The notes under the pieces are model-generated. The model saw only the letters and a program-made list of their open reading frames with translations. It did no database searches and was not told the origin of the DNA. This document shows positions 2 through 17,291 of a stretch of 17,291 nucleotides of DNA, piece after piece. Each line of letters opens with the position of its first letter. The first letter of the stretch is position 1. The position numbers and the translations under genes were made by a program. The stretch comes from Candidatus Pacearchaeota archaeon (GTDB taxonomy: Archaea; Nanoarchaeota; Nanoarchaeia; Pacearchaeales; GW2011-AR1), in contig NZAS01000135.1 in NCBI GenBank assembly GCA_002686195.1, positions 1-17,291 on the forward strand, written 5' to 3'.

Positions 2-169
2 AAACCATCAGTAAGCCCTTGGCAAGAAAAAGGAAATTATAAATTTGGTGACAAAGTAACAGGTAAAAGTGGTAGAACATTTTTAGCTATCGGTGGAAAG
101 TGGGGTGAAGCATCATTAGGTAAGACTGACCCAGAAAGCGACCATCCAATGTGGCAACCGCAGAAATAA
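2..169 (+). CDS. 3' end of an unrecognised phage gene (partial)
   Basis: The frame starting at base 2 is open from the left edge and ends at TAA 167-169, leaving 55 C-terminal residues. The visible part has many Gly and Lys residues (GDKVTGKSGRTFLAIGGKWG in the middle) and ends in a Trp/Pro-rich tail (HPMWQPQK). I do not recognise a family. The next gene starts two bases after this stop, so the two are probably co-transcribed. Its place upstream of head genes makes a structural or head-assembly role possible, but that is inference from position only. It could be short or long, since the start lies outside the window. Confidence 0.6.
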   Translation, partial: KPSVSPWQEKGNYKFGDKVTGKSGRTFLAIGGKWGEASLGKTDPESDHPMWQPQK

Positions 170-171
170 TT

Positions 172-885
172 ATGAAAAAATCACAAATTAGACAATTAGT
201 TAGAGAAACCATTATGGATATGTTTGAAGCAGAGATATCCAAGGGTGGGTTTACATTACAAGACTTTAGTAAAGTACATGGTGGTGAAGCTGGTGGAAGA
301 AAACAAGATAAAGGTTTATTTGACCTACAGAAAAAAGTAGAATTTGGTGTTAAAGGAGCTGATATAGATGCTTGGAGACATAAAGCTCTATTAAGTGGTG
401 ATAAAGAAAAATTACCATCTGCAAAATATCAAAGAGATGTTTCTAAAGTAAAAAGTGTTAGTGCTAAAATAGATAGTTTAGCGGCTATAAGAGCACAAGA
501 TGAACCTTCAAGAAGAGAAACTGGTGGAAGAGCAAAACCATCTACCAAAGTTAGTGCTAAGTATGTAGGTACAAAAGATGACTCTATTAAACAATATAAT
601 CAAATGATGGATGAAGAAATAGCTAAATTGAAGGGAATACAAGAAAAAACTCAAGAGGGAGATGTTAATTTTGTAGCACTTGGAAATTTGATAGAAGATT
701 TGGAGTTAAGAAAACAAGAATATGCATTAAGATGGGATTTTGTAACGGCGGCGTATAGTGAAAATGCCGCGGCTATGGATAATACTCGTGAATCTATTAA
801 AACTGTAAGAAGTCAACTTATGTCAAGACAAAAAGCAGTTGGTAAAGAACCAGAAAAAAATGGTAAAAATGGTGGTAAAAAATAA
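172..885 (+). CDS. Hypothetical protein, possible head-internal protein
   Basis: A 237-residue, Lys/Glu-rich, largely helical-looking protein with no signal peptide or membrane segment. I chose ATG 172 because it follows the upstream stop by two bases. A GTG at 151 would add seven residues but overlaps the upstream gene, and neither start has a clear Shine-Dalgarno sequence. The N-terminus (MKKSQIRQLVRETIMDMFEA) looks like a short amphipathic helix. In T4, short N-terminal sequences target internal proteins to the prohead core, so this could be a comparable leader; that is inference. The middle is Lys/Ser-rich and the tail is low-complexity (Gly, Asn, Lys). It lies a few genes upstream of the core and capsid genes. 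I cannot assign a family. Confidence 0.75.
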   Translation: MKKSQIRQLVRETIMDMFEAEISKGGFTLQDFSKVHGGEAGGRKQDKGLFDLQKKVEFGVKGADIDAWRHKALLSGDKEKLPSAKYQRDVSKVKSVSAKIDSLAAIRAQDEPSRRETGGRAKPSTKVSAKYVGTKDDSIKQYNQMMDEEIAKLKGIQEKTQEGDVNFVALGNLIEDLELRKQEYALRWDFVTAAYSENAAAMDNTRESIKTVRSQLMSRQKAVGKEPEKNGKNGGKK

Positions 886-1957: not shown

Positions 1958-3016
1958 ATGGACGACCTTTTGAAAGACGCAATAGCAGACGCAAAAGCAG
2001 TTCGTGAAACAGCATTGGAAAATGCTAAAGTAGCTTTACAAGAAGCTTTCACTCCGAGATTAAATCAAATGCTTTCTCAGAAGATTCAAAGTGAAGTTGA
2101 TGACGACATTTATGAAGAAGACGAGGAAGAAGCCGAAGAAGAAGAGGCCGATGAAGAAGAGGCCGAAGAAGTAGCTGATGATGAAGCTGAAATGGATGCT
2201 GAAGAAGCAGACGAAGAAGCTGAAGAAGAAGCTCCTGAAGAGGAAGAAGCCGCTGAAGAAGAACCCGCTGAAGAAGAGGGTGAAGAAGAAGCTGGCGAAG
2301 AAGAAGCAGAAGAAGAGGAAGAAGACGACCTTGACCTTGAAGCAGTTCTGAGAGAATTAGAATCAGAATTGAATGAAGAGGATGACGAGGAAGGTGACGA
2401 TTATCCTGTAGCGGATGAAGAAGAACCCGCTGATTTGGGTGAACCACCTGTCGAACTTTCCCCTGAAGATGCAACTCTTATGCCAGAACCTTCAGACGAA
2501 GAAGGCGAACTTGATTTAGACGCTCCTATGCCAGATGAATATGGCGAGGAAGACGAAGAAGTCGAAGAGGAAATTGACCTTGAAGAAGTACTTAAAGCTC
2601 TACAAGAAGAAGATGAAGAAGATGAAGAAGAAGAAGTTGATGAAATTACTAATCTGAAATCTGAACTTGGAGAACATCGCGAAGTGGTTAAGTACCTGCG
2701 GTCTAAATTAAATGAGGTCAATCTACTTAATGCTAAACTCTTGTTTACAAATAAGTTGTTCAGGAATCATTCTATGACTAATGAACAGAAAATTAAAGTC
2801 ATTGAGCAGTTTGACAGAGCTAAGAGTCTACGTGAGGTAAAACTTGTCTTTTCGACAATTGCCGAATCGTTTGGTTCTAAAGCTAAAAGTGTTAATGAAA
2901 GTAAAAAAGGTTCAGCTTCAAAAACTGTTGCTTCAACCAAACCCAAATCAAAGGCTGTTATAGCCGAGGGTTCTGAATTGAAGACACGTTTTCAGAAGTT
3001 GGCTAAGATACTTTAA
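1958..3016 (+). CDS. 22: Prohead core scaffold protein, T4 gp22-like
   Basis: 352 residues in three parts. Residues 1-47 form a helical head (ALENAKVALQEAFTPRLNQM and following) of the kind found in gp22-like proteins of marine T4-like phages. Residues ~48-230 are an extremely acidic Glu/Asp/Ala low-complexity region. Residues ~245-307 hold the recognisable core (LFTNKLFRNH, IKVIEQFDRAKSLREVKLVF), followed by a Lys/Ser linker and an LKTRFQKLAKIL tail. In T4 the core protein assembles inside the prohead, guides gp23 and is then degraded by the gp21 protease. The gene immediately upstream of the capsid gene fits. GGAG lies eight bases before the ATG. It is longer than T4 gp22 (269 aa), mainly through the acidic region. 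The assignment rests on the N- and C-terminal patterns plus context. Confidence 0.85.
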   Translation: MDDLLKDAIADAKAVRETALENAKVALQEAFTPRLNQMLSQKIQSEVDDDIYEEDEEEAEEEEADEEEAEEVADDEAEMDAEEADEEAEEEAPEEEEAAEEEPAEEEGEEEAGEEEAEEEEEDDLDLEAVLRELESELNEEDDEEGDDYPVADEEEPADLGEPPVELSPEDATLMPEPSDEEGELDLDAPMPDEYGEEDEEVEEEIDLEEVLKALQEEDEEDEEEEVDEITNLKSELGEHREVVKYLRSKLNEVNLLNAKLLFTNKLFRNHSMTNEQKIKVIEQFDRAKSLREVKLVFSTIAESFGSKAKSVNESKKGSASKTVASTKPKSKAVIAEGSELKTRFQKLAKIL

Positions 3017-3046: not shown

Positions 3047-4654
3047 ATGTCAAAAAGTAATCTAAAGTCTATTGAAGGCTTAATGGATAAATATAATCCA
3101 TATAAAGAACGGCTAGATGAAACTCGTAAGTTGGTAGACAAGTGGGAGCCCACTGGTTTACTCGAAGGTATTGGTGAAGAATCTAAAGTATTTGGAATGG
3201 CATGCTTATTGGAAAATCAAGCTCGTCAATTAATTGATGAGTCTTCCAAGACAAGTACCCAATCTAACTCGGAAGAGTGGAGTGGTGTTGCACTTCCTTT
3301 GGTACGTAGGATTTTTGGTGAATTGGCTGCACAAGATTTTGTATCTGTTCAACCTATGAACTTACCTTCAGGACTTATTTTTTACCTTGACTTCAAATAT
3401 GGGTCAGCTCAAGCTGGTCACACTCAGAATTCAGACATACATGGTATGACTTCTGGTTCTGGTGACGCTTCTGGTGGTCTTTATGGAGCAGGTAAATTCG
3501 GATACTCAATTAACGATTCCGTCGCATCTGTAGCATCTGGAAATTATTCTTCCAGTTCAGTTGTTTGGGGTGACGTTGATTTTGAACCCGACCTGAGTTC
3601 TTCTTTAGACAATCTAAGAAAAATTACTATCGCTCTCGCAGACGATGGTATGACAAATCCTGATTTCGATGGCGTAAGAGCTTTCGAAATTTCAGGTTCT
3701 GATACAGCGGCTATCGCAACTCATTACCCAGCTTATGCTAACTGGGATGGTTCGAACTGGAACTTTATTGTAAAGACTTCTGGTGCGTACGAAGTTGATG
3801 GCTCTGTACACGTGAAGTATCACAAAGCACCTACGGATGTTACTCGTGGTGACTTTGAAGATTCACCTACAGAACCTGCAACGGATGCTGGAATTCCTGA
3901 AATTGATATTCAGATGAAATCTATTCCGATTGTAGCAAAAACTCGTAAATTGAAAGCTGTTTGGACTCCTGAGCTTGCTCAAGACCTTAACGCTTATCAT
4001 TCTGTTGACGCAGAAGCTGAGTTGACTGCTATGTTATCAGAATACATCTCAATGGAAATTGATTTGGAAATTCTTGATATGTTGATGGCTAACGCCTCTG
4101 CAAAAACTGAACGTTGGTCAGCAAGAGTAGGATATGAGTATAACTCATCTACAGCTCTTTTCGCTGCCACATCTGATAACGCTTCCGCGTACGTAAAAGG
4201 AACTTGGTTCCAGACTCTTGGTAACAAGATACAGTCTGTTTCCAATGCAATCCATCAGAAAACTCTACGTGGTGGAGCAAACTTTATGGTCGTAAGTCCT
4301 GAAGTTGCTACTATCATCGAGTCTATTCCTGGATATGCTGCTGATACGTCTGGTGACGCGACACAAGGTTCATTTGCAATGGGTGTACAAAAAGTTGGTT
4401 TATTGAACAACCGTTTTACGGTCTACAAGAATCCATACATGCAAGAGAACGTAATACTTTGTGGTTTTAGGGGAAGTAATTTCCTTGAAACTGGTGCTGT
4501 ATACGCTCCGTATGTACCACTCATCATGACTCCGTTGGTCTATGACCCAACAAACTTTACGCCTCGTAAGGGTGTGATGACAAGATACGCGAAGAAAATC
4601 GTGCGTCCTGAATTCTATGGTAAAGTTGTTGTTGCTGATGTTAACTACGTTTAA
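3047..4654 (+). CDS. 23: Major capsid protein, T4 gp23-like
   Basis: 535 residues, close to T4 gp23 (521). It shares recognisable blocks in the right order: LLENQ (~54-58, like IFENQ in T4), LVRRIFGELAAQDFVSVQPM then NLPSG (~85-109), LKAVWTPELAQDLNAYHSVD-AEAEL in the second half, and near the end ETGAVYAPYVPL, DPTNFTPRKGVMTRYA and a short C-terminal strand. It forms the hexameric lattice of the head. Residues ~115-290 (Gly/Ser/Asp-rich) correspond to the variable insertion-domain region. I-D-E at 63-65 fits the T4 prohead protease pattern (I/L-x-E) and falls where T4 gp23 is cut (after residue 65); L-L-E at 38-40 is a weaker alternative. GGAGA precedes the ATG. The gene is clearly richer in G+C and in CGT arginine codons than its neighbours, as expected of a very highly expressed gene. 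Confidence 0.96.
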   Translation: MSKSNLKSIEGLMDKYNPYKERLDETRKLVDKWEPTGLLEGIGEESKVFGMACLLENQARQLIDESSKTSTQSNSEEWSGVALPLVRRIFGELAAQDFVSVQPMNLPSGLIFYLDFKYGSAQAGHTQNSDIHGMTSGSGDASGGLYGAGKFGYSINDSVASVASGNYSSSSVVWGDVDFEPDLSSSLDNLRKITIALADDGMTNPDFDGVRAFEISGSDTAAIATHYPAYANWDGSNWNFIVKTSGAYEVDGSVHVKYHKAPTDVTRGDFEDSPTEPATDAGIPEIDIQMKSIPIVAKTRKLKAVWTPELAQDLNAYHSVDAEAELTAMLSEYISMEIDLEILDMLMANASAKTERWSARVGYEYNSSTALFAATSDNASAYVKGTWFQTLGNKIQSVSNAIHQKTLRGGANFMVVSPEVATIIESIPGYAADTSGDATQGSFAMGVQKVGLLNNRFTVYKNPYMQENVILCGFRGSNFLETGAVYAPYVPLIMTPLVYDPTNFTPRKGVMTRYAKKIVRPEFYGKVVVADVNYV

Positions 4655-5938: not shown

Positions 5939-6424
5939 ATGGCCGGAAGATTTAATTCTGCAAATGATTTAAGAACATTTGAAACTTTTAATAAAGAGTT
6001 AATAGGTGATTTACGTCTAAGTAAAGATGGTATAATAAATCAACAAATAACTATATTTAAAGTTTCTGTGATGGATACGAGTACTAATTTATATGGTGAG
6101 TCTACTGGTGGTAAAGTTTATAAACCAGGTGTTAAATTAGCTTGTATGATTGAGTCTGGTGATATAGATTTTAATATGGATGAATTTGGAGCAGATAGTT
6201 TACAAGATGCTACATTTTTTATGTTAAGAGAATCTTTGACAGATTTAGATTTCGTTCCAGAGTTGGGAGATATAGTAGAATGGAATTATGCACATTTTGA
6301 AATTAATGGTATAAATGAAAATCAATTGGTTGGCGGTATGTATGACCAAAATTGGTCTGTTAATTGTACTGCACATTTAATTAGGTCTGTCAATTTACAA
6401 ATTGAAAGAGTGAGAAAAGTATAA
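5939..6424 (+). CDS. 14: Neck protein, gp14-like
   Basis: 161 residues. The pattern NKELIGDL, ITIFKVSVMDTSTNLYGEST, KVYKPGVKLACMIE, MDEFGAD, FMLRESL, PELGDIVEWNYAHFEINGI, ENQLVGG fits the core of the T4-like gp14 family, in which a beta-rich domain carries the N-YGES and GDIVEW-type motifs. It is shorter than T4 gp14 (256 aa), so it probably holds the core without the T4 additions. In T4, gp14 joins gp13 at the portal to complete the head and receive the tail. AGGA lies seven bases upstream of the ATG. The stop overlaps the next start as TAATG (6422-6426), so the two are probably translationally coupled. Confidence 0.7.
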   Translation: MAGRFNSANDLRTFETFNKELIGDLRLSKDGIINQQITIFKVSVMDTSTNLYGESTGGKVYKPGVKLACMIESGDIDFNMDEFGADSLQDATFFMLRESLTDLDFVPELGDIVEWNYAHFEINGINENQLVGGMYDQNWSVNCTAHLIRSVNLQIERVRKV

Positions 6425-7212
6425 TGGCTACAAGATATAGACCAATACCAGAAGTACAAAAAACTGAAAGAAGCCCTGGTGTTAACGCTAATAGAGGAAA
6501 ACAATTATCAAGAAAAAAAGATAATGTTAAAGATTATAGCATTGGTTTAATGGATGTAGATGGTGCAATTATGTATTATTTTAATGAGGTAATAAAACCA
6601 ACTATTGAAGATAATGGTGAAGTTGCTAAAGTTCCTGTTCTTTATTCTAATGCAGAAAGATGGAAGACTGCTCAAGTTGATGGAGTGATACGAGATAATA
6701 GAAAACAAGTTATTTTACCAGTAATAACTTTTAAAAGAACAAGTATTGCTAAAGATGAAAGTATTCCAGTAGATAAATTAGGTGATAGAGACCCACAATT
6801 ATTTTATCACTTTGAAAGATTATATAATTCTGAAAATAGGTATGATAAGTATAGTGTACAACAAGGTCTTACACCAGCAAGACAATATCATTCAATAGCG
6901 ATGCCGGATTATATGACTATGACTTATGATGCTATTATTTGGACGAGTTATACTGAACATATGAATGAGATAATAGAAAAAATTAATTTTTCTGAAGGTT
7001 CTTATTGGGGAGAACCTGGTAAGTTTAAATTTAGAGTAGCTATAGATTCGTTTGATGATGCTACGGAGTTGGCTGATAGAGAAAGAATTGTAAGAAGTTC
7101 GTTTTCTTTTAGTTGTAGAGGATATTTGATGCCAGATAGTATTAATAAAGCAATAAGTACAAGAAAATATTTTACACCAAAAGCAATTACTGTAACAGAA
7201 GTTGTTGAGTAG
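6424..7212 (+). CDS. 15: Tail completion / sheath stabiliser protein, gp15-like
   Basis: 262 residues (T4 gp15: 272). The order of blocks matches the gp15 family: a VPVLYSNAERWKT strand (~residue 78-90), ILPVITFKRT (~105-115), PDYMTMTYDAIIWTSYTEHM then NEIIEKI (~160-188), YWGEPGKFKFRVAIDSFDD and a final beta block VRSSFSFSCRGYLMPD. gp15 forms a hexameric ring that caps the tail tube and sheath and docks the tail to the neck. The N-terminal ~35 residues are basic and Arg/Pro-rich. It completes the 13-14-15 cassette. The start overlaps the previous stop by one base, with no separate strong Shine-Dalgarno, consistent with coupled translation. Confidence 0.75.
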   Translation: MATRYRPIPEVQKTERSPGVNANRGKQLSRKKDNVKDYSIGLMDVDGAIMYYFNEVIKPTIEDNGEVAKVPVLYSNAERWKTAQVDGVIRDNRKQVILPVITFKRTSIAKDESIPVDKLGDRDPQLFYHFERLYNSENRYDKYSVQQGLTPARQYHSIAMPDYMTMTYDAIIWTSYTEHMNEIIEKINFSEGSYWGEPGKFKFRVAIDSFDDATELADRERIVRSSFSFSCRGYLMPDSINKAISTRKYFTPKAITVTEVVE

Positions 7213-7221
7213 GAGAATATA

Positions 7222-7719
7222 ATGGGAGTTAATAATCAATTAGGCGGAGTAACAGATTTTATTAGATTAGCAGAAACGCAAACAGGAAATCAAGCTACAG
7301 ATATAGAGTTTACTAATACTTTTGGTGGTGAGACGATATTTATAATGAGAGGAGATGGTACTGCGGTATCTGGTAGCGATACTGTTAATTTGGATTATAT
7401 TGGTAGTCGGTATTATAGAAAAATTTATAATTTTGCTGGAAATGAATCGTCATCAATAGGTCAAAATAATTCACAAGTTTTTGAATTTTCATCATCTCTT
7501 GATAGTGGGTATCGTATAAAAAATGGTACGGTAGATGTAAATGTTAATGGAACAATAATGGTATCTAATACAGACCAATTGGGGCCAAGTACAGTAGATT
7601 TTTATCTAAGTAGTTCTTATGAACAAGTTAATGTAAGAAAATTATATACTGGTGGATTGGGTTTAACACTTGAACCAAGTGATATAGTTAATATATCGTT
7701 TCAACAGGAGAAGATTTAA
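7222..7719 (+). CDS. Structural protein, paralog 1 of a tandem family
   Basis: 165 residues, beta-rich in appearance, Ser/Thr/Asn/Gly-rich, no signal or membrane segment. It is clearly related to the next protein: shared FGGE/D, NL-x-x-GS-YY, the K-NGT / VNG / VDFYL-S / V-KLY / DIV-FQQE series and similar length. The VNG ... FYL ... DIV pattern resembles strand-rich domains seen in phage fibre and baseplate proteins, but I cannot name the family. AGGAGA lies six bases before the ATG, directly at the end of the 15-like gene. A tail, neck or fibre-attachment role is inferred from its neighbours. Confidence 0.75.
   Translation: MGVNNQLGGVTDFIRLAETQTGNQATDIEFTNTFGGETIFIMRGDGTAVSGSDTVNLDYIGSRYYRKIYNFAGNESSSIGQNNSQVFEFSSSLDSGYRIKNGTVDVNVNGTIMVSNTDQLGPSTVDFYLSSSYEQVNVRKLYTGGLGLTLEPSDIVNISFQQEKI
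7706..7710 (+). promoter_or_regulatory. Shine-Dalgarno embedded in the end of paralog 1
   Basis: AGGAG lies in the codons for the Gln-Gln-Glu ending of paralog 1 (CAA CAG GAG) and is nine bases before ATG 7720. The same arrangement and spacing recur before ATG 8299. Confidence 0.85.
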
Positions 7720-8298
7720 ATGGGAATTAACTGGATACCAGGTCAGTTAGGTATTAAACAAGTAGAAGGGTATAGGGGCGTTACAAGAGATTTTGTAACA
7801 CCAATTTCTGAGTCTGCTTTTGGTGGAGATGTTTTAAAATTTCATGATAGTACAACCAGTTCAATAGAAAATGGATTTACTATGAATTTAGTAAAAGGTA
7901 GTCCTTACTATTCAACTGATATTGTAAATAGAGATTTTAGTGACTCGGCTATGTATTATATACGAGAGAATTTTGTATTCAATGAGATGACGGCGTCTAC
8001 TTCGGAATACCAAGAATTTCATCCAAGATTATTGGGTGATAAAAGGAAAGTTAAAAATGGAACTCTCCAAATTAGTGTTAATGGTTGGCCAATGAGGTCA
8101 ATATCTGGTTCAACAATAGACCAAACTATTAGTACTAATGGTGTAGAATTTTATTTAGATTCTACACAAAAAAAAGTACGTATTAAAAAATTATATGTTG
8201 AAGATGAAAATAAAGTCGCAGGTGAAAGAGTTTTATTAGGAATAGATTTAAATAGTGACGATATAGTTTCATTTAAATATCAACAGGAGACAAGTTAG
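7720..8298 (+). CDS. Structural protein, paralog 2 of a tandem family
   Basis: 192 residues, starting immediately after the previous stop (TAA then ATG). It aligns with paralog 1 along most of its length: SAFGGDVLKF, MNLVKGSPYY, KVKNGTLQISVNG, VEFYLDS, VRIKKLY, DDIVSFKYQQE. The N-terminus differs (INWIPGQLGIKQVEGYRGV) and a ~25-residue insertion lies before the last block (around EDENKVAGERV). The strand-rich pattern suits a trimeric or ring-forming virion component, but I cannot identify the family. Its gene ends with the same embedded AGGAG as paralog 1. A recent unequal duplication is unlikely, since identity is only patchy. Confidence 0.75.
   Translation: MGINWIPGQLGIKQVEGYRGVTRDFVTPISESAFGGDVLKFHDSTTSSIENGFTMNLVKGSPYYSTDIVNRDFSDSAMYYIRENFVFNEMTASTSEYQEFHPRLLGDKRKVKNGTLQISVNGWPMRSISGSTIDQTISTNGVEFYLDSTQKKVRIKKLYVEDENKVAGERVLLGIDLNSDDIVSFKYQQETS
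8285..8289 (+). promoter_or_regulatory. Shine-Dalgarno embedded in the end of paralog 2
   Basis: AGGAG overlaps the CAA CAG GAG codons at the end of paralog 2 and sits nine bases before ATG 8299, exactly as at the previous junction. Confidence 0.85.
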
Positions 8299-9258
8299 AT
8301 GCCACTTATAGACCCGATACGACAATTAAAACCAGCTCCATCATCGAGTAGAGTTTTACAATCTTCTGTACTTACAAGTTCGGATACTGGACTACCTACA
8401 TTACAATGGGGTCAAGTTAGTCTTGAAGTACTTGGAACTGGTAGTTTAGATATGGGTTCAGGTAATACCCTATCTGTTGGTTATATTGATAGCTATAACA
8501 ATATAATAAGAAATTCATTAAGTGATACTTCTATTCAATTACTTGTAGATGGGTATGCGTCTGGTAGTGTTAAAGTATGGGGAGATTTGGTTGTAGAAGG
8601 AAGTCAATCTATACAAAATACTGTTACTTTTGCTGTAGAAGATTCTATTCTTGATTTAAATTTTAGTGGGTCTACCGCATTAGCGGCACAAGATAGTGGT
8701 TTAAATGTTGGTCGTAATGGTTTAAATAATGCAAGATTACTATGGGATGAATCAGAAACAAGTTGGATGGTAGATAAAGGAACTGGTACTTTACAGACAA
8801 TAGGTGGTGCTACAGGTTCAGGTTTTCTTGGTTCTACTAATACTAATATGTCTTCTTCTACTATGTTAGAAGGTGCTAATTTAACTTTTGAAGGTGGTGG
8901 TGAAGTACAAGGGTTACCAGGTACACCATCAACTGGAAGTGCGGCTGTATCATATACATTTGTATCTGAATCTTTATTTAGTTATGCTAGAAATACTACA
9001 TCAAAGAAAGCTGATACAGTTACTGCACCATCAACAGCTTCTTTTAATAGTGTTTATACGGCGTCAGCACCAGATGGATTTAGTTCAACTAATAAAGATG
9101 ATTTTTTATTCTTTATCAATGGACAATATATGGAACACGAAGCTGTTACAATTAGACAAGAAGATTCAAATTTAAAATTGTATATTGATAGTGCAAGTTT
9201 AGGAATGGAATTTGATGCAGATGATGAAATAGTTGGATGGGGTAAGTTTACTATATAA
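8299..9258 (+). CDS. Fibre-like structural protein
   Basis: 319 residues, starting directly after the previous TAG. Three parts are visible. The N-terminal ~95 residues are Ser/Leu/Gly-rich (SLEVLGTGSLDMGSGN). Residues ~95-165 carry a motif common in marine phage tail fibres: VKVWGDLVVEGSQSI, VEDSILDLNFSG, DSGLNVGRNGLNNARLLWDE, W. The last ~80 residues (FLFFINGQYME, LKLYIDSASLGMEFDADDEI) echo the NG / YLDS / DDIV pattern of the two proteins just upstream. No signal or membrane segment is seen. It probably belongs to a fibre or its attachment structure, and it sits just before the giant collagen-like gene. Gene-specific identity is uncertain. Confidence 0.75.
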   Translation: MPLIDPIRQLKPAPSSSRVLQSSVLTSSDTGLPTLQWGQVSLEVLGTGSLDMGSGNTLSVGYIDSYNNIIRNSLSDTSIQLLVDGYASGSVKVWGDLVVEGSQSIQNTVTFAVEDSILDLNFSGSTALAAQDSGLNVGRNGLNNARLLWDESETSWMVDKGTGTLQTIGGATGSGFLGSTNTNMSSSTMLEGANLTFEGGGEVQGLPGTPSTGSAAVSYTFVSESLFSYARNTTSKKADTVTAPSTASFNSVYTASAPDGFSSTNKDDFLFFINGQYMEHEAVTIRQEDSNLKLYIDSASLGMEFDADDEIVGWGKFTI

Positions 9259-9297: not shown

Positions 9298-12200
9298 ATG
9301 GCCAAAATTGAAGAAAAACAATTAGATGACGTTCTTATAGCGGGATTAAGTGGAACAAGTGGTTCTTCTGGTTCTTCTGGTTCCAGTGGTTCAAGTGGAA
9401 CGAGTGGAACAAGTGGAACAAGTGGAAGTTCTGGTTCAAGTGGAAGTAGTGGTTCGTCTGGAACAAGTGGAACAAGTGGTTCGTCTGGTTCCAGTGGAAG
9501 CAGTGGTTCGTCTGGCACCGATGGAACTTCGGGTACTGATGGAACTTCGGGTACTGATGGAACAAGTGGAAGTTCTGGTTCAAGTGGAAGTAGCGGAACA
9601 AGTGGAAGTTCTGGAACAAGTGGTTCGTCTGGTTCAAGTGGAAGTTCGGGTTCAAGTGGAACAAGTGGTTCAAGTGGTACAGACGGAACAAGTGGTTCGT
9701 CTGGTTCCAGTGGAAGTTCGGGTTCCAGTGGCTCAAGTGGAACTGATGGAACAAGTGGTTCTTCAGGTTCCAGTGGCTCAAGTGGAACTGATGGAACAAG
9801 TGGTTCTTCAGGTTCCAGTGGCTCAAGTGGTTCGTCTGGAACAAGTGGAACAAGTGGTTCGTCAGGTTCCAGTGGTTCAAGTGGAACTGATGGTACAAGT
9901 GGAACTGATGGAACGTCTGGTACAGACGGAACGAGTGGTTCAAGTGGTTCAAGTGGTTCCAGTGGTTCAAGTGGAAGTTCTGGAACTGATGGAACAAGTG
10001 GTTCATCTGGTTCAAGTGGAAGTTCTGGAACTGATGGAACAAGTGGTGTATCCGATACCTATGTTACAACATCTTCTACAAGTGTAGCTATACCAACATC
10101 ACACCCAACCACAGTAACAATTACTGTTGGTACTGGACTTGGATGGAGTACAGGTCAAAAATCTCTTGTAGCTAAAACAGGTGACGCGTCAAAAAGATTT
10201 TTAATGGAAGTAACCAGTTATAATACTGGTACAGGAGTTTTAATAGGTGACTCGGAATCAAATAATGGTACTGGTACTATTGATACATGGTCTGTAAATT
10301 TAGAAGGTGTTGCAGGAGACGATGGAACATCTGGTTCTTCAGGTTCAAGTGGAACTGATGGTACAAGTGGAACTGATGGTACATCTGGTACAGATGGTAC
10401 GAGTGGTTCGTCAGGTTCAAGTGGTTCAAGTGGTTCAAGTGGGTCTTCAGGAACTGATGGTACAAGTGGTTCCAGTGGAAGTTCAGGTTCAAGTGGTTCC
10501 AGTGGTTCGAGTGGTACAGACGGAACAAGTGGAAGTAGTGGTTCTTCAGGTTCTTCAGGTTCAAGTGGAACTGATGGTACATCTGGTACAGATGGAACAA
10601 GTGGTTCAAGTGGTTCAAGTGGAACGAGTGGTTCAAGTGGTTCGAGTGGCTCAAGTGGAAGTTCAGGTTCAAGTGGTACAGACGGAACAAGTGGAACTGA
10701 TGGAACAAGTGGAACTGATGGAACAAGTGGAAGTAGTGGTTCGTCAGGTTCAAGTGGGTCTTCAGGAACTGATGGTACATCAGGTTCAAGTGGTAGTTCT
10801 GGTTCCAGTGGTTCAAGTGGTACTGATGGAACTTCTGGTTCAAGTGGGTCTTCTGGTTCAAGTGGTTCAAGTGGTTTAGACGGAAACTTTGGTGGAGCTT
10901 CATTTGAATATGATTTTGAAGCAACATTTACTTCAGATTCAGACCCAGGCACTGGGATGTTACGATTAAGTAGTGCTACACAAAATACTGCTACTGAAAT
11001 TTATATAGATGATACTGATGTAAATTCTACTGATATACAAAGTTATATGCGTACCATTGACGATAGTACATCAACTTTAAAAGGTCATGTAAAGATTTCA
11101 AAAAAATTCTCTACTGGTGAATTTTTATTATTTACTATAACAGATTTAACAGAAAATTCTGGTTATTTTACTATAGCCGTTACTAATGTAGATTATTCAA
11201 CGGCATCACCATTTGGTGATAATGATGATATAATAGCTACCTTTGCTAGAACTGGTGATAAAGGTGATACAGGCGAGGCAGGAACAAGTGGAACTGATGG
11301 AACGTCAGGTTCAAGTGGTTCATCTGGTTCAAGTGGTTCAAGTGGAACTGATGGAACAAGTGGTTCGAGTGGTTCGAGTGGTTCAAGTGGTTCAAGTGGA
11401 ACTGATGGTACATCTGGTACAGATGGAACAAGTGGTTCGAGTGGTTCAAGTGGAACAAGTGGAACAAGTGGTTCGTCTGGAACAAGTGGTTCTTCTGGTT
11501 CTTCTGGTTCTTCAGGTTCCAGTGGTTCAAGTGGAACTGATGGTACATCTGGTACAGATGGTACAAGTGGAACTGATGGAACTTCAGGTACAGATGGAAC
11601 AAGTGGTTCAAGTGGAAGTTCGGGTTCAAGTGGGTCAAGTGGAACAAGTGGCTCGAGCGGTTCAAGTGGGAGCTCAGGTTCCAGTGGTTCAAGTGGAACT
11701 GATGGAACAAGTGGTTCGTCAGGTTCATCTGGCTCGAGTGGTTCAAGTGGTTCAAGTGGATTAACTGGTGATGCATATGAAACTACATCTTCTACAAGTG
11801 TAGCAATACCAACATCACATCCAACTACTGTTACAATAACAATTGGAACTGGTTTACAATGGACAATTGGTCAGACTGCTCTTGTAGCGTATACAAATTT
11901 AAAGAAATTTCAAGGTTCAGTAAGTGCATATAATGGTGTAACGGGAGTTGTAGAATTAGCTTCTACATCAAATACTGGTACGGGTACTTATGATGATTGG
12001 GAAGTAAATCTTGGTGGTGTTGAAGGGCCAGCAGGAACAAGTGGTTCTTCAGGTTCAAGTGGTTCAAGTGGAACTGATGGAACTTCGGGTACAGACGGAA
12101 CAAGTGGTTCGTCAGGTTCAAGTGGAAGTTCGGGTTCAAGTGGAAGTTCGGGTTCAAGTGGAACAAGTGGTTCAAGTGGTACAGACGGAACAAGTGGGTC

Positions 12201-15200
12201 TTCAGGTTCAAGTGGAACGAGTGGAACTGATGGAACAAGTGGTTCAAGTGGAAGTAGTGGTTCTTCAGGTACAAGTGGAACGAGTGGAACAAGTGGTTCC
12301 AGTGGTTCAAGTGGAAGTTCTGGAACTGATGGAACAAGTGGTTCGTCAGGCTCAAGTGGCTCAAGTGGTTCAAGTGGTACAGACGGAACAAGTGGTTCTT
12401 CTGGTTCAAGTGGTTCAAGTGGAAGTAGTGGAACAAGTGGAAGTAGTGGTTCGTCAGGTTCATCTGGCTCAAGTGGAAGTTCTGGAACCGATGGAACAAG
12501 TGGTTCTTCAGGTTCAAGTGGAACAAGTGGAAGTTCTGGAACCGATGGAACAAGTGGTTCTTCAGGTTCAAGTGGAACTGATGGAACTGATGGAACTTCA
12601 GGTACTGATGGAACAAGTGGGTCTTCTGGTTCAAGTGGTTCAAGTGGAAGTTCTGGAACAAGTGGTTCAAGTGGCTCGTCAGGTTCTTCAGGTTCAAGTG
12701 GAACTGATGGAACTTCGGGTACAGATGGAACAAGTGGTTCAAGTGGTTCAAGTGGTACAGATGGAACAAGTGGGTCTTCAGGGTCAAGTGGTTCATCTGG
12801 GTCAAGTGGGTCAAGTGGTTCATCTGGGTCAAGTGGGTCAAGTGGTGTAGATGGAAACTTTGGTGGTGTAACATTTGCATATACTTTTGAGACAAATACT
12901 ACAAACGCAAACCCAGGTTCTGGTGATATAAGATTAGATAATGCTACACAAAATGCTGCAACAGGTATTTATATCTGTGATACTGATGAAGATGGTACAG
13001 ATATATCATCTTATTTACAAACTATTGATGATTCTACGAGTGCTATTAAAGGTCATGTAAAGATTTCAAATAAATTAGATTCAAGTCAATTTATATTATT
13101 TACAATTGCAAGTTTAACAGATAATGTTGGATATTTTGATGTAACTGTAAGTCCAGTAGATTCATCTGGTGCTACACCTTTTGAAGCTAGTGAAGATATA
13201 ATTGTAACCTTTGCTAGAACTGGTGATGCAGGAACAAGTGGTTCTTCAGGTTCAAGTGGGTCAAGTGGTTCAAGTGGAACTGATGGAACAAGTGGAAGTA
13301 GTGGTTCCAGTGGTACGTCTGGTTCAAGTGGAACTGATGGAACAAGTGGAAGTAGTGGTTCTTCAGGTTCAAGTGGGTCAAGTGGTACAGATGGTACATC
13401 TGGAACTGATGGAACAAGTGGTTCCAGTGGCTCAAGTGGTTCAAGTGGCTCAAGTGGAAGTAGTGGAACTGATGGAACAAGTGGAAGTAGTGGTTCAAGT
13501 GGAAGTAGTGGTTCTTCTGGTTCAAGTGGAACTGATGGAACGAGTGGAAGTAGTGGTTCTTCGGGAACTGATGGAACATCTGGTTCTTCAGGTTCAAGTG
13601 GAACTGATGGAACGAGTGGAAGTAGTGGTTCTTCAGGTTCGAGTGGAAGTTCTGGTTCAAGTGGTTCAAGTGGCACGTCAGGTTCTTCAGGTACAGATGG
13701 AACAAGTGGTTCAAGTGGAAGTAGTGGTTCTTCAGGTTCGAGTGGTAGTGCTGGTACAAGTGGTGTGTCTGATAAATATGCTTCAACATCTTCTACTTCT
13801 AAGGCAATACCAACATCACATCCAACTGCAGTAACAATTACAATAGGTACTGGATTATCGTGGTCTGTTGGTCAATCAGCACTTGTTGCGTCTGATAATG
13901 ATAATAAATTTGTAGGTGAGGTAACTTCTTATACGACTGGTACTGGTGTACTTGTATTAGATTCTACATCAAATACTGGTACAGGTACATATGATGATTG
14001 GGAAGTTAATTTAGAAGGTGCTCCAGGCCCCGCTGGTACAAGTGGTAGTTCTGGTTCATCTGGTTCTTCAGGTTCAAGTGGAACGGATGGTACAAGTGGA
14101 AGTTCGGGTTCAAGTGGAACAAGTGGAAGTTCTGGAACAAGTGGAAGTTCTGGAACAAGTGGTTCAAGTGGTTCCAGTGGTTCAAGTGGAACTGATGGAA
14201 CTTCAGGTACAGATGGAACAAGTGGTTCAAGTGGTTCCAGTGGCTCAAGTGGGTCAAGTGGAAGTTCAGGTTCCAGTGGAACGGATGGAACAAGTGGAAC
14301 AAGTGGTTCGTCTGGTTCAAGTGGAAGTAGTGGTTCTTCAGGTTCAAGTGGAACAAGTGGAAGTAGTGGAACAAGTGGTTCAAGTGGAACTGATGGAACA
14401 AGTGGAAGTAGTGGTTCTTCAGGTTCCAGTGGCTCGTCAGGTTCAAGTGGCACAAGTGGTACAGATGGAACGTCAGGTTCAAGTGGAAGTAGTGGTTCTT
14501 CAGGTTCAAGTGGAACATCTGGCACAAGTGGTTCGAGTGGTTCTTCAGGTTCAAGTGGTTCAAGTGGAACGGATGGTACAAGTGGAACTGATGGCACAAG
14601 TGGTTCGTCAGGTTCATCTGGAACAAGTGGTTCAAGTGGAAGTTCAGGTTCCAGTGGTTCAAGTGGAACAAGTGGTTCAAGTGGAACGGATGGTACAAGT
14701 GGAAGTTCTGGTTCAAGTGGTACAAGTGGAAGCTCAGGCACGAGTGGGTCAAGTGGAACTGATGGAACGTCAGGTTCAAGTGGTTCATCTGGTTCAAGTG
14801 GTTCAAGTGGAACGAGTGGTTCAAGTGGTTCAAGTGGAAGTAGTGGTTCTTCAGGTTCAAGTGGAACAAGTGGTTCAAGTGGAACAAGTGGTTCATCTGG
14901 GTCAAGTGGTTCCAGTGGTTCATCTGGGTCAAGTGGCTCAAGTGGTTCAAGTGGTGTAGATGGTAATTTTGGTGGAGCTTCATTTGAGTATGATTTTGCT
15001 ACAGCTACTTCAATGGTTGACCCAGGAAGTGGTGCTCTAAGACTTAATGCGGCAGACCAAAATACAGCTACTAACATAGCTATTGATGAATTAGATGTTA
15101 ATGGTACAGATATTTCAAGTTATCTTGTTACCATAGATGATTCCACATCTACTATTAAAGGACACGTAAAGATTTCAAATAAAACTGATAGTAGTCAGTT

Positions 15201-17291
15201 TATATTAGCAACAATCTCAAGTCAAACTGATAATACAGGATGGCACACAATTGTTATATCTGTAGTTGATTCATCAGCTACATCACCATTCAGTAATGCA
15301 GAAGATATTATAGTTACATTCGCTAGAACTGGTGATAAAGGTGACGCTGGAACGTCAGGTACTGATGGAACAAGTGGAAGTAGTGGAAGTAGTGGAAGTT
15401 CTGGTTCTTCAGGTTCAAGTGGTTCCAGTGGTTCAAGTGGAACTGATGGAACAGATGGAACAAGTGGTTCAAGTGGAACTTCTGGTTCTTCAGGTTCCAG
15501 TGGTTCGTCAGGTTCAAGTGGTTCAAGTGGAAGTTCTGGAACAAGTGGTTCAAGCGGAACAAGTGGTTCAAGTGGTTCAAGTGGAAGCTCAGGTTCCAGT
15601 GGCTCAAGTGGAACAAGTGGTTCAAGTGGTTCAAGTGGAAGTTCGGGTTCAAGTGGTTCAAGTGGAACTGATGGAACAAGTGGAAGTTCGGGTTCAAGTG
15701 GAACTGATGGAACAAGTGGTTCTTCAGGTTCCAGTGGTTCAAGTGGTTCAAGTGGTTCAAGTGGAACTTCTGGTTCTTCAGGTTCCAGTGGTTCGTCAGG
15801 TTCAAGTGGTTCAAGTGGAACTGATGGTACAAGTGGTTCTTCAGGTTCCAGTGGTTCTTCAGGTTCAAGTGGTTCAAGTGGAACTGATGGAACAAGTGGT
15901 TCGTCAGGTTCAAGTGGTTCAAGTGGTTCGAGCGGAACTGATGGAACGTCAGGTTCAAGTGGAACTGATGGAACAAGTGGTTCAAGCGGAACTGATGGAA
16001 CAAGTGGTTCAAGCGGAACTGATGGAACAAGCGGTTCAAGCGGAACTGATGGAACAAGTGGCTCAAGTGGTTCAAGTGGTTCAAGTGGTTCGTCAGGTTC
16101 AAGTGGTTCAAGTGGTGTAACCGTAAGTGGAACAAGTGGTTCTTCAGGTTCAAGTGGTTCAAGTGGTTCTTCAGGTTCAAGTGGTGTAACCGTAAGTGGA
16201 ACAAGTGGTTCTTCAGGTTCAAGTGGTTCAAGTGGTTCGTCTGGTTCAAGTGGTGTAACCGTAAGTGGAACAAGTGGTTCTTCAGGTTCAAGTGGTTCGT
16301 CTGGTTCAAGTGGTGTAACCGTATCTGGAACAAGTGGTTCAAGTGGAACTGATGGAACAAGCGGGTCAAGTGGTTCAAGTGGAACTGATGGAACTGATGG
16401 TGCACCTGGTGGAACAGTAGATAGGTGTCATTTAAAGAAAAGTTCAGCAACTGAAGACATTAACGTTGTTCAGGCCAGTGCTGTAGCGATTGATTTTGAT
16501 GCTGAAGAATATAAATCAGCAATATATACTCATTCTACGGTAACCAATCCTGAACGAGTTACGGTTACTGCAGATGGCCTATACTACGTATTCGCTAATG
16601 TAACTTCTAAAAATACAGGCAACTCCAGGGTAAGTACAGTAGCCAGTATTTACAAAAACGGCACCGAAATCACTCAAACGCGAGTGTATAGTTATAGCCG
16701 TGGTGCATCCTATGGTGACGACAAATCCAAAACTATTATAACTACTCTCAGTTTAGTGGACACAGATTACATAGAAGTAAGAGCCTATGCTGATGACTAT
16801 GAACAAGCAGATTCTATTGATACAATAGTTGCAGAATGTGAATTTATAATAACCAGAATATCTACTGCGGCAGGTGTGGGAGGTTCTTCAGGTACAGATG
16901 GAACAGATGGAACAAGTGGTTCAAGTGGAAGTAGTGGTTCAAGTGGTACAGATGGTACATCTGGAACTGATGGAACATCTGGAACTGATGGTACATCTGG
17001 TACAGATGGTACAAGTGGAACTGATGGAACTTCAGGTACAGATGGAACATCTGGAACTGATGGTACATCTGGTACAGATGGTACAAGTGGAACTGATGGA
17101 ACTTCAGGTACAGATGGAACAAGTGGTTCTTCAGGTTCAAGTGGTGTAACCGTAAGTGGAACAAGTGGTTCTTCAGGTTCAAGTGGTTCAAGTGGTTCAA
17201 GTGGTTCGTCTGGTTCAAGTGGTGTAACCGTATCTGGAACAAGTGGTTCGTCTGGTTCAAGTGGTGTAACCGTATCTGGAACAAGTGGTTC
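9298..17291 (+). CDS. Giant collagen-like modular fibre protein (3' end outside window)
   Basis: One frame is open from ATG 9298 to the right edge: 2,664 codons and no stop. The N-terminal leader is 15 residues (MAKIEEKQLDDVLIA). Then Gly-X-Y blocks made of GSS, GTS and GTD alternate with globular modules: A1 (residues 253-336), B1 (532-652), A2 (827-906), B2 (1189-1308), A3 (1492-1573), B3 (1892-2011) and a C1q/TNF-like domain C (2372-2528), then more Gly-X-Y. I checked the frame across each block; globular modules and repeats stay in one phase. Collagen-like phage proteins form trimeric fibres; here a surface adhesin, whisker or head/neck decoration is inferred. Only three Cys residues are seen (one in B2, two in C). 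The start has only a weak TTGGA seven bases upstream. Proline is almost absent from the Gly-X-Y blocks, which is unlike typical collagen. Confidence 0.93.
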   Translation, partial: MAKIEEKQLDDVLIAGLSGTSGSSGSSGSSGSSGTSGTSGTSGSSGSSGSSGSSGTSGTSGSSGSSGSSGSSGTDGTSGTDGTSGTDGTSGSSGSSGSSGTSGSSGTSGSSGSSGSSGSSGTSGSSGTDGTSGSSGSSGSSGSSGSSGTDGTSGSSGSSGSSGTDGTSGSSGSSGSSGSSGTSGTSGSSGSSGSSGTDGTSGTDGTSGTDGTSGSSGSSGSSGSSGSSGTDGTSGSSGSSGSSGTDGTSGVSDTYVTTSSTSVAIPTSHPTTVTITVGTGLGWSTGQKSLVAKTGDASKRFLMEVTSYNTGTGVLIGDSESNNGTGTIDTWSVNLEGVAGDDGTSGSSGSSGTDGTSGTDGTSGTDGTSGSSGSSGSSGSSGSSGTDGTSGSSGSSGSSGSSGSSGTDGTSGSSGSSGSSGSSGTDGTSGTDGTSGSSGSSGTSGSSGSSGSSGSSGSSGTDGTSGTDGTSGTDGTSGSSGSSGSSGSSGTDGTSGSSGSSGSSGSSGTDGTSGSSGSSGSSGSSGLDGNFGGASFEYDFEATFTSDSDPGTGMLRLSSATQNTATEIYIDDTDVNSTDIQSYMRTIDDSTSTLKGHVKISKKFSTGEFLLFTITDLTENSGYFTIAVTNVDYSTASPFGDNDDIIATFARTGDKGDTGEAGTSGTDGTSGSSGSSGSSGSSGTDGTSGSSGSSGSSGSSGTDGTSGTDGTSGSSGSSGTSGTSGSSGTSGSSGSSGSSGSSGSSGTDGTSGTDGTSGTDGTSGTDGTSGSSGSSGSSGSSGTSGSSGSSGSSGSSGSSGTDGTSGSSGSSGSSGSSGSSGLTGDAYETTSSTSVAIPTSHPTTVTITIGTGLQWTIGQTALVAYTNLKKFQGSVSAYNGVTGVVELASTSNTGTGTYDDWEVNLGGVEGPAGTSGSSGSSGSSGTDGTSGTDGTSGSSGSSGSSGSSGSSGSSGTSGSSGTDGTSGSSGSSGTSGTDGTSGSSGSSGSSGTSGTSGTSGSSGSSGSSGTDGTSGSSGSSGSSGSSGTDGTSGSSGSSGSSGSSGTSGSSGSSGSSGSSGSSGTDGTSGSSGSSGTSGSSGTDGTSGSSGSSGTDGTDGTSGTDGTSGSSGSSGSSGSSGTSGSSGSSGSSGSSGTDGTSGTDGTSGSSGSSGTDGTSGSSGSSGSSGSSGSSGSSGSSGSSGVDGNFGGVTFAYTFETNTTNANPGSGDIRLDNATQNAATGIYICDTDEDGTDISSYLQTIDDSTSAIKGHVKISNKLDSSQFILFTIASLTDNVGYFDVTVSPVDSSGATPFEASEDIIVTFARTGDAGTSGSSGSSGSSGSSGTDGTSGSSGSSGTSGSSGTDGTSGSSGSSGSSGSSGTDGTSGTDGTSGSSGSSGSSGSSGSSGTDGTSGSSGSSGSSGSSGSSGTDGTSGSSGSSGTDGTSGSSGSSGTDGTSGSSGSSGSSGSSGSSGSSGTSGSSGTDGTSGSSGSSGSSGSSGSAGTSGVSDKYASTSSTSKAIPTSHPTAVTITIGTGLSWSVGQSALVASDNDNKFVGEVTSYTTGTGVLVLDSTSNTGTGTYDDWEVNLEGAPGPAGTSGSSGSSGSSGSSGTDGTSGSSGSSGTSGSSGTSGSSGTSGSSGSSGSSGTDGTSGTDGTSGSSGSSGSSGSSGSSGSSGTDGTSGTSGSSGSSGSSGSSGSSGTSGSSGTSGSSGTDGTSGSSGSSGSSGSSGSSGTSGTDGTSGSSGSSGSSGSSGTSGTSGSSGSSGSSGSSGTDGTSGTDGTSGSSGSSGTSGSSGSSGSSGSSGTSGSSGTDGTSGSSGSSGTSGSSGTSGSSGTDGTSGSSGSSGSSGSSGTSGSSGSSGSSGSSGSSGTSGSSGTSGSSGSSGSSGSSGSSGSSGSSGVDGNFGGASFEYDFATATSMVDPGSGALRLNAADQNTATNIAIDELDVNGTDISSYLVTIDDSTSTIKGHVKISNKTDSSQFILATISSQTDNTGWHTIVISVVDSSATSPFSNAEDIIVTFARTGDKGDAGTSGTDGTSGSSGSSGSSGSSGSSGSSGSSGTDGTDGTSGSSGTSGSSGSSGSSGSSGSSGSSGTSGSSGTSGSSGSSGSSGSSGSSGTSGSSGSSGSSGSSGSSGTDGTSGSSGSSGTDGTSGSSGSSGSSGSSGSSGTSGSSGSSGSSGSSGSSGTDGTSGSSGSSGSSGSSGSSGTDGTSGSSGSSGSSGSSGTDGTSGSSGTDGTSGSSGTDGTSGSSGTDGTSGSSGTDGTSGSSGSSGSSGSSGSSGSSGVTVSGTSGSSGSSGSSGSSGSSGVTVSGTSGSSGSSGSSGSSGSSGVTVSGTSGSSGSSGSSGSSGVTVSGTSGSSGTDGTSGSSGSSGTDGTDGAPGGTVDRCHLKKSSATEDINVVQASAVAIDFDAEEYKSAIYTHSTVTNPERVTVTADGLYYVFANVTSKNTGNSRVSTVASIYKNGTEITQTRVYSYSRGASYGDDKSKTIITTLSLVDTDYIEVRAYADDYEQADSIDTIVAECEFIITRISTAAGVGGSSGTDGTDGTSGSSGSSGSSGTDGTSGTDGTSGTDGTSGTDGTSGTDGTSGTDGTSGTDGTSGTDGTSGTDGTSGTDGTSGSSGSSGVTVSGTSGSSGSSGSSGSSGSSGSSGVTVSGTSGSSGSSGVTVSGTSG
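9343..10053 (+). repeat. Gly-X-Y block 1 (79 triplets)
   Basis: Uninterrupted triplets from GLS to GVS. They are almost all GSS, GTS and GTD, with no proline. Codons vary (GGA/GGT/GGC; six serine codons), so this is not a perfect DNA satellite. Confidence 0.95.
10054..10305 (+). other. Fibre module A1 (84 aa)
   Basis: Encodes a beta-rich globular module. Key marks are YVTTSSTS, IPTSHPTTVTITVGTGLGW, GQKSLVA, F-MEVTSYNTGTGVL and a final GTGTIDTWSVNLEG. It returns to Gly-X-Y through GVA-GDD. It is the most divergent of the three A copies at its C-terminal end (TIDTWS instead of TYDDWE). Function unknown; it may be a trimerisation or spacer head. Confidence 0.85.
10306..10890 (+). repeat. Gly-X-Y block 2 (65 triplets)
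   Basis: Runs from GVA-GDD to GLD-GNF without interruption. GTD-GTS-GTD runs at 10351-10400 and 10678-10725 stand out among the GSS triplets. Confidence 0.95.
10891..11253 (+). other. Fibre module B1 (121 aa)
   Basis: Globular module with the landmarks GGASFEYDFEA, DPGTG, ATQNTATEIYIDDTD, MRTIDDSTS, KGHVKIS, FLLFTITDL and a closing IIATFARTG that runs into GDK-GDT-GEA. I recall similar modules between collagen-like repeats in phage proteins, but I cannot name a curated family. Confidence 0.85.
11254..11775 (+). repeat. Gly-X-Y block 3 (58 triplets)
   Basis: Begins with charged triplets GDK-GDT-GEA, then GTS/GSS/GTD, and ends GLT-GDA. A GTD-GTS-GTD cluster lies at 11533-11600. Confidence 0.95.
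11776..12015 (+). other. Fibre module A2 (80 aa)
   Basis: YETTSSTSVAIPTSHPTTVT, then ITIGTGLQW, GQTALVA, FQGSVSAYNGVTGVV and NTGTGTYDDWEVNLGG. The DNA for the IPTSHPT segment is identical to A3 over about 20 bases, pointing to duplication. Confidence 0.85.
12016..12861 (+). repeat. Gly-X-Y block 4 (94 triplets)
   Basis: From GVE-GPA to GVD-GNF. It contains one of the few Pro triplets (GPA at its start). A 54-base tandem unit (12475-12528 and 12529-12582, nearly identical) includes the uncommon ACC GAT spelling of Thr-Asp in both copies. Confidence 0.95.
12862..13221 (+). other. Fibre module B2 (120 aa)
   Basis: GGVTFAYTFETNT, NPGSGDIRLDNATQNAATG, YICDTDEDGTDISSYL, TIDDSTSAIKGHVKIS, ending IIVTFARTG. 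It has a Cys at codon 12976 (YICD) that B1 and B3 lack. Confidence 0.85.
13222..13770 (+). repeat. Gly-X-Y block 5 (61 triplets)
   Basis: From GDA to GVS, with GSA just before its end. It is unusually rich in the GGA AGT AGT spelling of Gly-Ser-Ser, which suggests local amplification within the block. Confidence 0.95.
13771..14016 (+). other. Fibre module A3 (82 aa)
   Basis: KYASTSSTSKAIPTSHPTAV, GTGLSW, GQSALVA, FVGEVTSYTTGTGVLVLDS, NTGTGTYDDWEVNLEG. It leads into GAP-GPA, the only pair of consecutive Pro-containing triplets seen in the fibre. Confidence 0.85.
14017..14970 (+). repeat. Gly-X-Y block 6 (106 triplets)
   Basis: The longest unbroken block, from GAP-GPA to GVD-GNF. At the standard collagen rise it would be a rod of roughly 90 nm, if it forms a triple helix. 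The Thr-Asp spelling ACG GAT is seen mainly here. Confidence 0.95.
14971..15330 (+). other. Fibre module B3 (120 aa)
   Basis: GGASFEYDFATATSMVDPGS, LRLNAADQNTATNIAIDELD, NGTDISSYL, TIDDSTSTIKGHVKIS, FILATIS, closing IIVTFARTG. It opens like B1 (GGASFEYDF) but its middle is closer to B2 (DISSYL, IKGHVKISNK), so the copies may have exchanged segments. Confidence 0.85.
15331..16410 (+). repeat. Gly-X-Y block 7 with VTV interruptions
   Basis: About 360 residues from GDK-GDA to GAP-G. Four GVTVSG interruptions (16114, 16183, 16252, 16312) each put two glycines five residues apart instead of three. A 27-base unit coding GSSGTDGTS is repeated three times at 15979-16059 with the rare AGC serine codon in each copy. 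Confidence 0.93.
16114..16329 (+). repeat. Tandem 69/69/60-base units carrying GVTVSG
   Basis: The GVTVSG coding segments start at 16114, 16183, 16252 and 16312, with nearly identical DNA between them. The last copy spells Ser as TCT instead of AGT. Three more copies occur near the right edge (17143, 17221, 17263). Confidence 0.9.
16411..16881 (+). other. Fibre domain C, C1q/TNF-like
   Basis: A ~157-residue globular domain between Gly-X-Y blocks. The jelly-roll hallmarks are VTVTADGLYYVFANV (around residues 2420-2434), ASIYKNGTEI (2450-2457) and LVDTDYIEVRAYADD, ending with EFIITRI. C1q/TNF-like domains trimerise collagen-like stalks and often bind ligands. Two Cys (codons 16426 and 16837), near the two ends, could pair. 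Base and codon use differ from the A and B modules (about 40% G+C in sampled lines against about 25%). The fold assignment is by eye. Confidence 0.7.
16882..17291 (+). repeat. Gly-X-Y block 8 (runs off the window)
   Basis: GTD-GTS-rich at 16900-17124, then GSS with GVTVSG interruptions at 17143, 17221 and 17263. A 72-base unit at 16981-17052 is repeated at 17053-17124 with only the final codon different. Confidence 0.93.

Follow-up and report, generated by a model that had tools for sequence, protein, structure and literature searches.

The window analysed here, a stretch of 17,291 nucleotides, ends inside an open reading frame made up largely of Gly-X-Y triplets. The locus raises the questions of whether such a repetitive gene is real, what kind of structure its product would form, and how far it differs from phage fibres already described. 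The original prediction held that it encodes at least 2,664 residues in one frame, with two kinds of domain, A and B, alternating strictly along collagen-like stalks, and that the product is a distinct type of appendage.

A giant fibre gene in a T4-like structural cluster

The fibre frame runs on the forward strand from 9298 to 17289 (2,664 aa) and stays open through the end of the window. The missing 3′ end, whose recovery had been proposed as a check, was supplied by a 40,846-bp phage record in which the window occupies G000:C1:10926-28216. In this record, the whole gene (G000:C1:20223-29558) encodes 3,111 aa without an internal stop codon and has a Peptidase_S74 terminus; the window (9298..17291, +) holds the 5′ 2,664 of the 3,111 codons, with 1,342 more bases lying beyond it.

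Judging by its gene content, the record is a T4-like virus of bacteria, a myovirus. Its structural cluster contains gp23, gp20, gp18, gp19 and gp17 homologues (PF07068, PF07230, PF04984, PF06841, PF03237), with terminase and portal upstream of the window and sheath, tube and a baseplate-type protein downstream. The window itself encodes a gp23-like major capsid protein (3047..4654, +; PF07068, E = 3.1e-76) and a gp15-like tail sheath stabiliser (6424..7212, +; PF16724, E = 6.8e-7), and the fibre gene sits between the latter, after three small genes, and the sheath gene. The small gene directly 5′ of the fibre encodes a 319-aa protein (8299..9258, +) with a 317-aa counterpart at the same place in a second species. 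The two before it (7222-7719 and 7720-8298) are adjacent paralogues (32% identity, E = 4e-14), and contigs of the second species have similar-sized proteins at their place. Immediately before the capsid gene, where a scaffold would be expected, 1958-3016 encodes a very acidic, Glu-rich 352-aa protein; Pfam and PHROG searches gave it no match at E ≤ 1e-3. The products of window 151-885, L002:8673-10082 and L002:10096-11094 share SKGGFTL(K/Q)DFS(A/K)V and similar later stretches, and the three genes apparently form a tandem family lying upstream of the capsid cluster.

Gene place was compared across 56 related loci with enough upstream DNA. An S74-type protein lies just 5′ of the small pre-sheath ORF at 39 of these; the protein at the fibre place fails the S74 pattern at 15 (one of them, L074, passes a looser pattern) and 2 were not judgeable. 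S74-type proteins at this place range from 216 aa up to thousands and are often shorter than the window fibre. Microcystis phage Mel-JY01, whose capsid protein makes it the closest annotated relative, has no such fibre at this place. The leader of the window fibre (MAKIEEKQLDDVLIA; 9298..9342, +) bears a MAxxxxKQ(L/I) motif common to some fibres at the same gene place: it is present in 11 of 28 complete N-termini there, 5 of the 11 coming from the window lineage, and absent from 17, and another 10 of the 28 start with MP(S/N)WKK. Among 2,503 ORFs the motif had 21 distinct matches, namely 14 long putative structural proteins, two of 105 aa and 5 that seem unrelated. The motif alone is non-specific; in the leader, a candidate virion anchor, it may act as a docking peptide.

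Collagen-like rods alternate with two kinds of bead

Following the leader, rods and beads are arranged on the forward strand as (Gly-X-Y, A, Gly-X-Y, B) three times, followed by interrupted Gly-X-Y, a TNF/C1q-like domain and more Gly-X-Y. Rod 1 (9343..10053, 79 triplets) leads into bead A1 (10045..10314), rod 2 (10306..10899, 66 triplets, its run ends overlapping the bead edges) into B1 (10882..11271), rod 3 (11254..11775, 58 triplets) into A2 (11761..12024), rod 4 (12016..12870, 95 triplets) into B2 (12853..13239), rod 5 (13222..13770, 61 triplets) into A3 (13762..14025) and rod 6 (14017..14979, 107 triplets) into B3 (14962..15348). The A copies are identical to one another at 55-61 of 87-88 residues and the B copies at 77-83 of 129. 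Both the strict alternation and the proposed bead borders were recovered: all three B copies start with GNFGG after G-x-D and end in FARTGD, and the triplets behind A contain D, E or P in all three copies, in line with the charged or Pro triplet that had been described there. Rod 7 (15331..16416) is broken by four GVTVSG interruptions and leads to the TNF/C1q-like domain (16417..16872), after which the interrupted rod 8 (16873..17291) continues out of the window. Beyond lie further Gly-X-Y with GVTVSG breaks, a region of ~155 residues and the Peptidase_S74 domain (L004:2242-2556).

Counting runs of at least 4, the window encodes 627 Gly-X-Y triplets, or 1,881 of its 2,664 fibre residues, including 351 GSS, 147 GTS and 92 GTD. 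In the full-length protein, GSS, GTS and GTD account for 638 of the 685 triplets and proline occurs in 4; there are 16 copies of GVTVSG, which are G4G-type breaks. Since 78 different 9-base words encode the rods, the repetition is at the protein level and not the expansion of one DNA unit. Pfam Collagen (PF01391) matches 23 stretches of the fibre (E = 5.5e-235), and the long uninterrupted Gly-X-Y expected of collagen-like proteins is present in rods 1-6, at 58-107 triplets each. The locus does encode a very long single fibre with A and B beads between collagen-like rods, as had been proposed. It is not the largest array of this kind that we encountered: an ORF in the 735-kb phage record LR756501.1 (L010) exceeds the window fibre in Gly-X-Y triplets, with runs of 301, 44, 424 and 9, and bears an A-type bead.

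The distal region

The domain at 16417-16872 had been called C1q-like. TNF and C1q belong to one superfamily, and a weak Pfam TNF score (E = 3.4e-4; 21.0 bits, where 23 is the cut-off) would fit that assignment; a PDB sequence search gave it no firm support, with an oligopeptide-binding protein as the best match (E = 0.0016) and CD40 ligand at E = 0.34. The domain is absent from the otherwise matching fibres of two related contigs, L012 and L013, so the distal part is strain-variable.

The C-terminal domain was assigned to Peptidase_S74 (PF13884, E = 1.7e-13; 51.0 and 53.6 bits against a cut-off of 22), and had no meaningful match among PDB sequences. It contains a Ser/Lys pair five residues apart, Ser3007 and Lys3012, each near-invariant (36 of 37 aligned rows). 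A Ser-x4-Lys pair is also found in T5 pb1 (Ser1264/Lys1269) and MYRF (S578/K583), and this +5 spacing is described for self-cleaving trimeric chaperones (PMC4690869, PMC3742443). By analogy, the S74 domain of the fibre would cut itself at Ser3007 after trimerisation and release the last 105 residues.

Glycine at every third position is conserved

Three contigs from other IMG/VR datasets, L012, L013 and L104, are ~91-93% identical to the window in DNA over the aligned stretch and have six rod lengths identical to those of the window, L104 stopping after bead B3. Their change counts relative to the window are equal over the first 2,015 codons, so we count them as one genotype. A further contig, L091, shows 100% identity across 6,872 bp and possibly represents the same population as the window phage. 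In a second species (L016, L017 and L023; sheath 88% identical) the fibre is again ABABAB, with rods of 69, 52, 47, 84, 49 and 97 triplets, each 10-14 fewer than in the window. This shared order, together with the equal rod lengths in the other contigs, indicates that the architecture is inherited. Within the second species, rod 6 of L023 has 34 triplets instead of 97 and rod 7 has 68 or 101, and length change within a species is therefore seen distally. Compared with L003, rods 1-6 of L016 are shorter by 10, 14, 11, 11, 12 and 10 triplets, all of the same sign and of nearly equal size.

In an ungapped comparison with L104, none of 466 rod glycines was changed, against 76 of 932 X/Y residues, a difference with a probability of about 4e-14 if changes fell evenly; 85 Gly codons were changed silently. 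L012 and L013, the same genotype, repeat these numbers over the same stretch, and the same simple comparison with them loses register in the distal part, where Gly mismatches appear. dN/dS against L104 was 0.35 for the rods and 0.51 for the modules. In fragments of close relatives (L014, L015 and L018; sheath 85-93% identical), GAQ, GNQ or GTI abound in the rods, yet Gly stays at every third residue. The conserved feature of the rods is Gly at every third position. The same three fragments keep the S74 end, and their X and Y residues have turned over wholesale with Gly unchanged.

Beads A and B recur in other collagen-like phage proteins

Single-chain AlphaFold2 models were obtained for B from copy B2 (mean pLDDT 93.2, pTM 0.86, 45 sequences) and for A from copy A3 (mean pLDDT 86.4, pTM 0.78, 13 sequences). 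Neither family matched Pfam at E ≤ 1e-3, and neither fold matched the PDB at E ≤ 1e-3, where fold similarity was middling. Among predicted viral structures, 49 matched B (E ≤ 1e-3), and 26 of the 49 carry the name 'Collagen triple helix repeat'. These came mostly from uncultured Caudovirales phages, and also from Marseillevirus LCMAC102, Indivirus and Klosneuvirus. The models with a B fold from these three giant viruses are of collagen-repeat proteins (A0A481YTC9, A0A1V0SCQ2, A0A1V0SHP6), a hint that a collagen-associated module has been transferred.

The suggested profile-type searches with A and B were run on proteins 0.55-1.75 times the query length. The B search returned 45 proteins (P0003-P0047), of which 41 matched the Collagen Pfam family, 26 the S74 family and 25 both; all 45 have B beads only. 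The A search returned 2 proteins, one of which (P0001) has A, B, A. Scanning viral contigs with a pattern based on the A alignment found at least 498 stretches that encode a relative, and 78 loci were kept. Among the matches listed, these loci hold 87 ORFs with A, 79 of which have at least 15 Gly-X-Y triplets; 74 have A only, 13 also have B, and 7 are ABAB. All 7 ABAB ORFs come from contigs of the window fibre's lineage, some probably being duplicate assemblies, and no ABAB order outside that lineage was seen among the loci examined and the matches listed. Of 50,697 named phage records, 13 contained B and 2 contained A.

Since A and B also occur in other collagen-like phage fibres, to call the fibre a distinct appendage type was too strong. 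Judged by domain content, collagen plus B plus S74 is a recurrent recipe, and what is special to this lineage among the material examined is the three-fold ABAB order and the size. Proline is also nearly absent, and the proximal rod lengths are constant among related contigs.

A model of the fibre and its alternatives

We consider it likely that the gene encodes a long homotrimeric, S74-matured adhesin fibre of a T4-like myovirus, with beads on Gly-X-Y rods. The model builds on the observed sequence architecture, the S74 family with its Ser/Lys pair, the Gly conservation, the gene position and the finding that its parts occur together in other proteins. The fibre is probably a trimer, as the original prediction supposed, because it carries an S74 chaperone domain with the Ser/Lys pair and its Gly period is under strict selection. 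The three chains would begin at the short N-terminal peptide, probably docked close to the neck or tail of the virion, and each Gly-X-Y stretch would form an extended three-chain rod. Interrupting the rods, A and B would be small, mainly beta-strand domains that probably hold the chains in register, nucleate the rods and present binding surfaces. The distal part would comprise the strain-variable TNF/C1q-like domain, the G4G breaks and a tip that is probably beta-helical. The S74 domain would trimerise the chains, fold the tip and then cut itself off. The mature chain would have about 3,006 residues, and the role of the fibre would be host or surface recognition.

The collagen triple helix rises 0.286 nm per residue, and 685 triplets, if fully triple helical, would span about 588 nm. 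This value of ~590 nm is an upper estimate of fibre length, because the rods are nearly free of proline and the distal rods are interrupted. In bacterial collagens, proline makes up 19% of X residues according to a review (PMC8968730); with proline in 4 of 685 triplets, the stability of a triple helix here is doubtful. In a bolder version of the model, which we consider less likely than not, this proline-poor Ser/Thr/Asp collagen forms triple-helical rods, and A and B act as beta-domain register clamps spaced 58-107 triplets apart; the filament on this T4-like phage would then exceed half a micrometre. Rod lengths are constant within a genotype group, and on this proposal bead spacing itself would be functional.

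Three other explanations were weighed. That several fibre genes' rods were fused, expanded or collapsed during assembly is very improbable. The region is repetitive and lies in a metagenomic contig, the identical contig L091 ends inside interrupted rod 7, and the second-species contigs disagree in rods 6 and 7. However, no exact repeat of at least 120 bp was found in the fibre region, and short-read assemblers usually resolve exact repeats below that length; L012, L013 and L104 share the six rod lengths at ~91-93% DNA identity, and the 3,111 codons lie in one uninterrupted frame. A chimeric or collapsed assembly had been named as the finding that would overturn the prediction; at the contig level, with the same rod lengths in contigs from other metagenomes, collapse is unlikely. 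If the gene is real, its Gly-X-Y stretches could instead be flexible or polyglycine-II-type Ser/Thr-rich tethers, perhaps O-glycosylated, with nothing but the beads and the tip folded by S74 holding the trimer together, and the whole being floppy and much shorter than its extended length. The near absence of proline and the preponderance of GSS, GTS and GTD point this way. A linker, however, needs no exact third-residue glycine, yet none of the 466 glycines has changed relative to L104, the period survives replacement of X and Y in relatives, and Pfam Collagen matches many stretches, leaving the tether an unlikely reading, although polyglycine-II packing may fit these data.

The place of attachment invites another alternative, that the fibre is not a receptor-binding tail fibre but a whisker associated with the neck, collar or head and resembling fibritin in position and role. 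The gene does lie between the gp15-like gene with its three small followers and the sheath gene, not in a baseplate cluster. The C-terminus matches 37 PHROG families at E up to 1; of the 25 listed, 2 are classed as 'head and packaging'. The other 23 of those listed are classed as 'tail', however, 18 of the 25 being named tail fiber or long tail fiber distal subunit; a baseplate-type gene comes after sheath and tube, and gene order does not fix the attachment site. The fibritin family is absent from the Pfam matches of the fibre and from the Pfam and PHROG matches of its parts (for the C-terminus, among the matches listed). We regard a whisker as somewhat improbable, if slightly less so than the flexible tether, and retain the adhesin fibre as the preferred reading.

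Comparison with known systems

The closest experimental counterpart to the rods is EPclA, a prophage collagen-like protein of E. coli that was shown to be trimeric with a collagen triple helix and is a likely side-tail protein (PMC3368898); it is a precedent for triple-helical phage rods. EPclA and its kin share with the window fibre a phage Gly-X-Y rod with terminal globular domains, and are described in that source as having one collagen stretch, a coiled coil and PfN/PfC domains (PMC3368898). The window fibre, in contrast, has six A/B-separated rods plus distal rods, an S74 end and nearly no proline, and no PfN/PfC (PF08400, PF06820) was found in it, Collagen and Peptidase_S74 being its only Pfam matches at E ≤ 1e-3. 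T5 L-shaped fibre pb1 and K1F endosialidase also have a C-terminal S74-type domain with Ser and Lys five apart; collagen-like rods go unmentioned in the sections of the sources that deal with them (PMC4690869, PMC3742443), and cleavage of the window fibre is predicted only.

The metagenomic collagen plus B and collagen plus A proteins have the same kinds of rod and bead, but are B-only (45 of 45) or mostly A-only (74 of 87, among the matches listed). B-type domains also occur in the tail protein of Pelagibacter phage HTVC010P and its neighbour, and in a 'baseplate wedge tail fiber connector' of Synechococcus phage S-H34, proteins that are far shorter than the window fibre at about 450-500 aa. 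Pelagimyophages and cyanomyophages, marine phages that are T4-like as is the window phage, encode structural operon proteins with triple collagen repeats that are described as putative receptor-binding proteins, and the account of them given there does not describe a bead-on-rod order (PMC7029224). The tail whiskers of vB_PcaM_CBB, long thin virion appendages of 119 nm, resemble the proposed fibre as unusual long thin appendages, a likeness by description only; 'collagen' occurs 0 times in the main text of that report (PMC5259590).

Implications

The fibre is real, large and orderly, and is an unusually long form of a phage fibre type already known elsewhere. A and B have no Pfam match at E ≤ 1e-3 or clear solved relative and yet recur in metagenomic phages, B also in giant-virus models, so both deserve names and structures. 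The nearly proline-free, collagen-like rods offer a natural test case of whether such rods are triple helical when beads could clamp their register. More broadly, the fibre shows how phages can assemble very long fibres from exchangeable rods and beads.
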